A stretch of 64,000 bases of DNA, taken from Chloracidobacterium validum (lineage in GTDB: Bacteria; Acidobacteriota; Blastocatellia; Chloracidobacteriales; Chloracidobacteriaceae). The position numbers and the translations under genes are program-made. Every line of letters starts with the position of its first letter. Position 1 is the stretch's first letter. Where the stretch lies: NCBI RefSeq assembly GCF_018304825.1, contig NZ_CP072648.1, positions 293,501 to 357,500 on the forward strand, given 5' to 3'. Below are positions 29,841 through 32,077 of this stretch, piece by piece. Under the pieces are notes generated by a model that was given only the letters and a program-made list of their open reading frames with translations, made no database searches and was not told where the DNA came from.

Positions 29841-30875
29841 ATGAGTACTTACTTAGTGAACCCATCAAAAGCCTATCCATCTCAGCCTGCAAACCAACCT
29901 TCCGCACAGCAGCCCAACCAGTGGGTAGCGTGGCTCCTCGGCACGGCGTGGCTGGTGCTACTGGGGTGCTTCACCTACGTCATCATCAAGTTGCCCAAGA
30001 CGGACTTTCTCTGGGGCTACTTGCTATCCTGTCTCGGCGTGATTGGAACACTGTACTTCTTGCGGTACGTGTCAGAACCGGTCGAGGACCTGCCAAAGCT
30101 TGATACATCCGACCCATACCGTCTGGCCTATCTGCGCGGGCGGGCGAATGAAGCCTTACGGGTGGCGGCGGCCCTGCTGATCGAGCGCCAGGCGCTGGTG
30201 GTTATCCGTGACCAGAATGGCAGCGTGACCGAACTTGTCAAGGCACCTGACTGTGACCCGAAGCAGTTCGAGTTCCCTATTGAGCGCGCCGTGTTGGACT
30301 TTTTCACCGTACCACGTCCCTCAGAAGAGATGTTTCAAAAGGACGGACTCAAAGCGCGGGTGGATGATCTCTACAAGGAAGACCTCGTCAACAGAGGCTT
30401 CCTCCCGACTGAAGCGCAGGAAACGCGCCGCACGTGGCGTGTGTGCTTTGCGTGGTGTTTCATCGCCGTGGTTGGGCTGACCAAGATTGTGGTCGCGCTG
30501 CTTGCCGGGCGTTACACTATCGGCTTCACGATAGTCATTTTCCTGGCGGCTTTCTTCTGGGCGGCTGCGTTTATCGGCGACTATCGGACGCGCCTTGGCG
30601 ACTACGTTCTGGAGTCGTTGGCTTCGCTCTATGAAGGCTTGCGGCAACAGTCCACGGCGCTCAAAACCCGCGGCGCGGCGGCGCAGCTTGCGTTGGTGGC
30701 CGGCGTCTATGGCTTGAGCGCCATGCCGGCCGAGGCATTTCCCGACGTGAGAGAAACCTTCCGGCAGGCATCCTCTGGCTCTTCCTGCGGTAGCTCCTGC
30801 GGTAGTAGCTGCGGTGGTGACGGTGGCGGCGGCGATGGCGGTGGTTGCGGAGGGGGCTGTGGTGGGTGCAGCTAA
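29841..30875 (+). CDS. Membrane protein with Cys/Gly-rich C-terminal tail (TIGR04222-like), candidate MNIO substrate
   Basis: 344 aa. Two membrane helices at about 29-50 and 56-75, a soluble domain of about 120 residues (PYRLAYLRGRANEALRVAAA, a winged-helix-like segment including RQALVVI), two more helices at about 202-245, then a tail. The last 34 residues (311-344) are almost only Ser, Gly, Asp and six Cys, in SSCGSSCGSSCGG and GGGCGGGCGGCS blocks. As I recall, this layout matches the TIGR04222 membrane-protein family. GGGAG precedes the ATG. The next gene is a DUF692/MNIO oxidase, a family that modifies cysteines in ribosomal peptides, so the tail is the natural substrate candidate. The function of the membrane part is unknown. 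Confidence 0.85.
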   Translation: MSTYLVNPSKAYPSQPANQPSAQQPNQWVAWLLGTAWLVLLGCFTYVIIKLPKTDFLWGYLLSCLGVIGTLYFLRYVSEPVEDLPKLDTSDPYRLAYLRGRANEALRVAAALLIERQALVVIRDQNGSVTELVKAPDCDPKQFEFPIERAVLDFFTVPRPSEEMFQKDGLKARVDDLYKEDLVNRGFLPTEAQETRRTWRVCFAWCFIAVVGLTKIVVALLAGRYTIGFTIVIFLAAFFWAAAFIGDYRTRLGDYVLESLASLYEGLRQQSTALKTRGAAAQLALVAGVYGLSAMPAEAFPDVRETFRQASSGSSCGSSCGSSCGGDGGGGDGGGCGGGCGGCS

Positions 30876-30915
30876 CCTCAGCCAACCGACGCCTAGCCGT
30901 GATGGGAGATAGTTC

Positions 30916-31803
30916 ATGCGACCGATGGCGCCTGTAACCGACCGGGTTGGTCTTGGATGGCGCGCGCTGCTCGCGGCCGACATCCTGGCCAACCTCGACC
31001 GCATAGACGTTGTGGAAGTCATCGCCGACGACTACTTCGATGCGCCTCAGCGCGACCGCCAGGCCCTGCGTCTGCTTGGGCGACAAGTGCCGCTGGTACT
31101 GCACGGCGTGTCATTGGGTTTGGCTTCAACCGTTCCGGTGGATGTGGTTCGACTCGATCACATGGCGCGGCTCATCGAGGATGTCGAACCGTGGTTTTGG
31201 TCGGAACACTTGGCCTTTGTCCGTGGCGGTGGCGTCGAAATCGGTCATCTGGCCGCTCCGCCACGGACGGCGGCGACCATCGAAGGAACAGCCCGCAATC
31301 TGGCAACGACGCGAACCATTGTAGGTAGTGCGCCACTAGTCGAGAACGTATCCACCCTGTTTGAGCCGCCCGGCAGTACGCTGGATGAAGCCACATGGTT
31401 GCGCGGTGTCTTGGCCGCAACCGAAAACGATCTCCTGCTGGATTTGCACAACCTCTACACCAATGGGTGTAACTGTGACTTTGACCCGTATGACGTCATT
31501 GCCAACCTGCCGCTTGAGCGGGTGGGGTGCATACACATTGCCGGCGGCAAGTGGGTTCAGGCCACGCGCTTTCCAGGACGGCGGCGGCTGGACGATCATC
31601 GGCATGCCACACCGCCGCCTGTGTTTGATTTGCTGACCGAAGTTGCGCGTCGCGCCCGGCAACCGCTGGTCGTGATTCTGGAGCGGGACGGCGACTACCC
31701 AGCGTTTGACGAACTCCTTGCCGAACTGGATGCCGCCCGCGCTGCCCTGGCTCACGGACGCGCGGCACAATTGGCTAAACCCGATGTCGTCGCCACAATT
31801 TGA
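30916..31803 (+). CDS. Multinuclear non-heme iron-dependent oxidase (MNIO, DUF692)
   Basis: 295-aa TIM-barrel enzyme of the DUF692/MbnB family. Conserved metal-ligand positions are visible: H63 (LHGVSLGL), E97-H98 (WSEHLAF), E143-N144 (VENVST), D176/H178/N179 (LDLHNLYTN), H207 (IHIAGG), D227/H228/H230 (LDDHRH) and E256 (LERDGD). Known members use two or three irons and O2 to remodel cysteine residues of precursor peptides (MbnB, TglH, ChrH). It lies 40 bases after the Cys-rich-tail gene, with GGGAG before the ATG, and overlaps the next gene by 20 bases. Modification of the neighbouring tail is inferred. The enzyme itself has cysteines at 185, 187 and 205. Confidence 0.92.
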   Translation: MRPMAPVTDRVGLGWRALLAADILANLDRIDVVEVIADDYFDAPQRDRQALRLLGRQVPLVLHGVSLGLASTVPVDVVRLDHMARLIEDVEPWFWSEHLAFVRGGGVEIGHLAAPPRTAATIEGTARNLATTRTIVGSAPLVENVSTLFEPPGSTLDEATWLRGVLAATENDLLLDLHNLYTNGCNCDFDPYDVIANLPLERVGCIHIAGGKWVQATRFPGRRRLDDHRHATPPPVFDLLTEVARRARQPLVVILERDGDYPAFDELLAELDAARAALAHGRAAQLAKPDVVATI

Positions 31804-32077
31804 AGCTTTCTTAGCCCGCCTGTATGCCGATGCTTCCTTCCGTGAGGAGTTCCTGGCGGCGCCTGAAACGGTAGCCAAGGCCTTTGGTCTCTCGGCGCAG
31901 GAGTGCGCGGCGGTGGCCACCATTGACTTGACCGGCCTCGAACTTGCCGCGCGCGTCTTCGCCAAAAAATTGGATTACAAGGCAGAGCACCAGCGCCAGC
32001 AGGGTTGGCGGACGCGGCTGCGGCGCTGGTGGCGCGACCGGTGGGCAGCCGCGCGGCACTACAAAGGTCGCGCTTGA
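31784..32077 (+). CDS. Small partner protein of the MNIO operon
   Basis: 97 aa, overlapping the end of the oxidase gene by 20 bases, so translation is likely coupled. Residues about 4-50 form a short helical module (FEAFLARLYADASFREEFLA, then AKAFGLSAQECAAV), reminiscent of Nif11-type leader or LigA-like helices; the C-terminal half is strongly basic (RTRLRRWWRDRW). Partner proteins that deliver the substrate to the oxidase are usual in MNIO systems (MbnC, TglI). This protein could fill that role, but it lacks obvious similarity to them. Only one cysteine (C41), so it is a poor substrate itself. Confidence 0.8.
   Translation: MSSPQFEAFLARLYADASFREEFLAAPETVAKAFGLSAQECAAVATIDLTGLELAARVFAKKLDYKAEHQRQQGWRTRLRRWWRDRWAAARHYKGRA

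Follow-up and report, generated by a model that had tools for sequence, protein, structure and literature searches.

Three linked genes in the 64,000-nucleotide stretch of DNA analyzed here (the window), which comes from a photosynthetic acidobacterium of the genus Chloracidobacterium, probably form a protein-modifying MNIO operon in which the C-terminal tail of a TIGR04222 membrane protein is oxidized and serves as a metal-binding group. The genes encode the membrane protein P1 (344 aa, positions 29841..30875), an MNIO (DUF692) oxidase (295 aa, 30916..31803) and P3, a 97-aa helical protein with a predicted LigA/NHLP-leader fold (31784..32077), all on the plus strand. The three linked ORFs proposed from the DNA letters alone were thus all found, as was the overlap between the last two: the P3 ORF begins with the ATG at 31784 and shares 20 bases with the end of the oxidase gene. 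Because lon lies divergently upstream and a bchY-like gene convergently downstream, P1, the oxidase and P3 look like a unit of three genes. Profile searches of the genome, which is 3.66 Mb in two contigs, gave one TIGR04222 match, one MNIO match and no DUF2063 match.

The assignment of the second gene to the DUF692/MNIO family holds by both profile and motif. The protein scores 222.6 bits against PF05114 (cut-off 25), and in profile alignments to the solved structures 3bww, 8hci and 7dz9 the motifs H, H, E-N, D, H, D-x-H/DDH and E, which we take to be the metal ligands, are kept in register. No named MNIO equivalog was matched above its cut-off; the BufB model NF050167 gave 181 against a cut-off of 310, and the HvfB model NF003818 gave 143.4 against 360.

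Relatives of the operon were sought with an alignment of acidobacterial oxidases, as an alignment of 14 P1 proteins held no stretch that was conserved enough. The search found 76 oxidase loci, many of them from MAGs, with record titles that name Acidobacteria, Chloroflexi, Myxococcales, Alpha-, Beta-, Gamma- and Deltaproteobacteria, Verrucomicrobia, Planctomycetes, Armatimonadetes, Bdellovibrionales, Leptospirales and FCPU426. A phylum search centred on L087, whose record title names Acidimicrobiia, yielded genomes that the acidobacterial search had already covered. One locus, L031 (genome G396), belongs to the same genus as the window's genome; the co-occurrence of TIGR04222-like proteins with DUF692 clearly reaches well beyond that genus. 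A Cys-tailed TIGR04222 gene was located upstream of the oxidase, normally overlapping it or a few bases apart, in 74 of 74 assessable loci, a figure that expresses constancy within one clade and not a rate for all MNIOs, since the scan patterns derive from TIGR04222-linked oxidases and favour that clade. L074 and L112, where the sequence starts at or within the oxidase, were left out of this count. The pairing, present in all 74 relatives, is more than chance.

It is also clear that the Cys residues of the tail are kept wherever they could be assessed, with 2 to 8 in the last 60 residues at all 74 loci. Loss of the Cys tail from a homologue that keeps the oxidase, which was absent from these 74 relatives, was seen in one Streptomyces locus. 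At that locus, L140 from Streptomyces sp. BHT-5-2, the MNIO is followed by a long partner and then by a TIGR04222-like protein that matches the family weakly and lacks the Cys tail. Conversely, Cys-tailed TIGR04222 proteins occur in two acidobacterial genomes rated 99% complete, G062 (L005 / L205) and G059 (L014 / L206), in which no MNIO match was found, so the tail can be retained where the oxidase is missing.

P1 belongs to the TIGR04222 family with 81.9 bits (cut-off 43) and carries in addition a low-complexity C terminus of Gly, Ser and Cys. The AlphaFold model of P1 (mean pLDDT 85.5) contains long membrane helices at residues 27-50, 53-78, 191-222 and 227-245, which agrees with the four-helix membrane protein described in the sequence-only reading, and in addition a short hydrophobic helix of 11 residues (280-290) that this reading had missed, followed by a disordered tail (313-344). 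The first two helices (29919..30074, plus strand, from the secondary structure of the model) form an N-terminal pair, of which only the second is present in most P1 homologues. Two homologues, L010 and L016, have an added CxxC/zinc-ribbon-like N-terminal segment before an extra membrane helix, and such N termini fit an inside location for the N terminus of the two-helix form. Residues 92-184 (30114..30392, plus strand) form a soluble domain that may be winged-helix-like, judged by the order of its modelled elements only; a structure search with P1 returned no similar fold. The third and fourth helices make up a membrane hairpin (30411..30575, plus strand, from the model and the charge pattern).

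Within the P1 family, Lys and Arg cluster on the C-terminal side of helices 2 and 4 and on the N-terminal side of helix 3, and are sparse ahead of helix 2 and in the stretch that joins helices 3 and 4. From this distribution, including the Lys- and Arg-rich flanks of the soluble domain, the domain is predicted to lie in the cytoplasm, whereas Antoine et al. (PMC12452194) speak of “large periplasmic domains” for TIGR04222 proteins. Ahead of the tail lies a conserved short hydrophobic segment (residues 280-297; 30678..30731, plus strand, identified by hydropathy), which is borderline hydrophobic with a 19-residue hydropathy mean of 1.64 and a Lys plus Arg fraction of 0.05 over 59 homologues. The side of the membrane on which the tail resides depends on this segment, which could be either membrane-spanning or re-entrant.

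The tail itself comprises residues 311-344 of P1 (30771..30872, plus strand), is composed of Gly, Ser, Asp and Cys, and ends in CGGGCGGCS; its length of 34 residues and its six Cys residues are as first described. The last motif, GGGC-GGC, is invariant in 14 acidobacterial homologues. Across the tails of the 74 loci, Gly comes directly after Cys in 346 of 381 cases (91%), compared with 43% (SD 2%) and a maximum of 51% in 2,000 trials with shuffled tails. This Cys-Gly context is like that of the captophorins, where the Cys residues in EGKCG repeats are converted to copper-binding 5-thiooxazoles (PMC13097082), and because the context is shared we take 5-thiooxazole chemistry on the P1 tail, by analogy, as a first guess.

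The third gene had been left unexplained, and its product is most likely the partner protein of the oxidase. A P3 homologue is found 3' of the oxidase in 73 of the 74 assessable loci, as a separate gene in 65 and fused to the C terminus of the oxidase in eight (L041, L073, L077, L088, L089, L098, L100 and L107), the latter from Acidobacteria, Myxococcota, Planctomycetes and Betaproteobacteria MAGs. It is missing in L105, and L063 stops at a contig edge. The commonest junction between the oxidase and P3 genes is a 4-base (-4) ATGA overlap. The model of P3 is helical (pLDDT 85.8) and comes closest in fold to Os1348 and SonA, though at modest E-values. At the profile level P3 matches nitrile hydratase alpha chains as well as SonA, the RiPP precursor of a split borosin (E 7.6e-6). 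The Os1348 NHLP model is matched by 45 of 52 members of the P3 family; scores against RiPP leader families stayed below threshold.

Longer forms of P3 are present in other acidobacteria, Nonomuraea and Streptomyces, and they connect P3 to known MNIO partners. In hhalign comparisons the short P3 matched the long forms with a probability of 98.5 (E 2.5e-15), and the long forms matched DUF2063 proteins with a probability of 94.3 (E 1e-7, 131 columns); the short P3 alone gave no significant match to DUF2063, so the link is significant only via the long forms. No DUF2063 structure was among the best 50 fold matches of the P3 model. Antoine et al. name two kinds of MNIO partner, PME-type 1 (DUF2063) and PME-type 2 (PMC12452194). 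Since P3 combines a leader-like fold and the lack of a core with long forms linked to DUF2063 partners, follows the MNIO directly in 73 of 74 loci and, in the window, gave no DUF2063 hit, it is best interpreted as a short partner of PME-type 2 that acts in trans and is occasionally fused.

The conserved operon makes the Cys/Gly tail the likeliest MNIO substrate, as the sequence-only reading had suggested. The gene order, the P3 family with its fusions, the conserved Cys and Cys-Gly context of the tail and the family and motifs of the oxidase are direct observations; that the tail is the substrate, by what chemistry it is modified, which metal it binds and on which membrane side it lies are inferences. 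The oxidase and P3 would oxidize Cys residues of the Cys-Gly tail, most likely to groups of the 5-thiooxazole type that could bind copper or another soft metal, and P1 would thereby carry a fixed metal-binding tail. P3 may dock on the oxidase or complete it in trans, as the fused homologues would do in cis. This biochemical reading of the operon is plausible, and it is better supported through the evidence on the partner.

Three other explanations have to be weighed against it. The Cys tail could work unmodified, in thiol-based metal binding or redox reactions, with the oxidase and P3 acting on another residue or protein. Such a role would account for the Cys tails that persist in genomes without an MNIO gene and for the family-wide looseness of the TIGR04222-MNIO association reported by Antoine et al. 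(PMC12452194). We nevertheless regard it as unlikely, as the pairing is complete within the oxidase clade, the Cys-Gly context fits MNIO substrates, and no other small Cys-rich ORF recurs beside the operon when flanking ORFs of at least 100 aa are clustered. Another option is that signal peptidase cuts after the hydrophobic segment and sets the modified tail free as a peptide like the bufferins, and an A-x-A-like site is indeed present after the segment in P1 of the window (AMPAEA-F) and in some homologues. This site is not general, being missing at that position in for example L040 and L098, and the weak hydrophobicity of the segment means that translocation is not assured. We consider release of the tail improbable and have set it aside because the cleavage site is not shared by all homologues.

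The third explanation turns the roles around, with P3 as the true substrate in the form of a leader-like RiPP precursor, and with P1 as its transporter or as a partner of the immunity-like kind. What points in this direction is the leader-type fold (NHLP/LigA) of P3, together with its sub-threshold RiPP leader matches. Against it, nothing beyond residue 62 is conserved in the P3 family that could be a core peptide, many homologues end there, Cys is absent in 43 of 65 homologues, the scores against NHLP/Nif11 RiPP precursors are under the cut-off, P3 is fused to the oxidase C terminus at eight loci, and its longer forms resemble DUF2063 partners. P3 was rejected as a Cys-modified precursor on the lack of a core, the homologues that stop after the conserved helix and the many that are free of Cys, and we find it very improbable as the substrate.

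If the tail of P1 is modified, the MNIO would act on a full membrane protein, giving a metal-binding surface that is fixed at the membrane and not a released peptide; the literature searched gave no example of an MNIO that works on an intact membrane protein. The complete gene set is present in cultured Janthinobacterium strains, and the question is therefore open to direct testing.

Most relatives carry a fourth gene. Of the 68 loci whose sequence extends 700 bases or more upstream of P1, 61 have directly 5' of it a gene for a protein of about 245 aa with a nucleotidyltransferase match that is confined to the GS...SDxN region, and this gene mostly overlaps the P1 gene by 4 bases. Examples directly upstream of TIGR04222 among L037-L112 are L044:2341-3072, L047:2336-3061 and L098:2350-3111. 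The second acidic residue is replaced by Asn in 22 of 22 aligned members (motif GSAAEGRLRATSDVN), and by this substitution the protein is probably a pseudoenzyme or an altered enzyme. A search of 392 acidobacterial genomes gave five top matches, at 158 bits and above, all of which adjoin TIGR04222, and the other matches, at 131 bits or less, represent a more distant family. No full-length match was found in the window's genome or its genus. G062 keeps the nucleotidyltransferase-like gene together with the Cys-tailed TIGR04222 gene in a genome without MNIO. A link between MNIOs and nucleotidyltransferases was not found in the literature searched, and the main text of Antoine et al. is silent on it (PMC12452194). 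Tentatively, the relatives may have a four-gene pathway for membrane-protein maturation, consisting of the degenerate nucleotidyltransferase-like protein, TIGR04222, MNIO and the trans partner, where the cytoplasmic winged-helix-like domain of P1 would provide the recognition for which bufferin partners use their RRE domain, and of which Chloracidobacterium would have a minimal form of three genes.

A gene resembling TrkA/RCK-type potassium channels adjoins the operon in six loci (L005:1-1655 (L205:4008-6083), L039:491-2236, L009:3313-3690, L042:815-1651, L043:1385-2191 and L074:824-2308), and in an MNIO-less genome it lies directly 3' of the Cys-tailed TIGR04222 gene.

As for known systems, the P1 arrangement resembles the captophorins and bufferins (DUF2282, EGKCG) in that an MNIO and a partner would act on a Cys-rich substrate (PMC13097082). 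These systems differ in having peptide substrates with a Sec signal peptide and a PME-type 1 partner made up of DUF2063 plus an RRE (PMC13097082), whereas P1 has no match to the DUF2282, 6/12-Cys or EGKCG families and begins with a pair of membrane helices. A LigA/NHLP-like helical recognition domain appears common to P3, the SonA/SonM split borosin and the Os1348 NHLP clan, but the partner in SonA/SonM is a methyltransferase while P3 partners an MNIO and has no core peptide. The closest precedent is the work of Antoine et al. 2025, who collected more than 3,500 TIGR04222 proteins and found them often, though not always, linked to MNIO genes, which are absent from a third of TIGR04222 genomes (PMC12452194). 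Their Cys-bearing C-terminal region is thought to be periplasmic, and a subset of the proteins is proposed as MNIO substrates (PMC12452194). The pairing is thus already known, contrary to the sequence-only reading, which took the arrangement to be undescribed, and modification of the tail is still a proposal. The operon resembles the clusters of that report, with a TIGR04222 gene adjoining an MNIO gene, a C-proximal Cys/Ser/Gly tail and, as in part of those clusters, a PME-type 2 partner. The same paper puts PME-type 2 at 10% or more of the TIGR04222 clusters and describes many clusters as apparently partnerless (PMC12452194), unlike the present clade, where the short partner is near-universal and sometimes fused. 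The near-universal partner bears on a question raised there, namely how a TIGR04222 protein comes to be modified where a partner gene seems to be lacking. Added here to that precedent are the near-universal partner, its fusions to the oxidase, the Cys-Gly rule and the fourth gene in most relatives.
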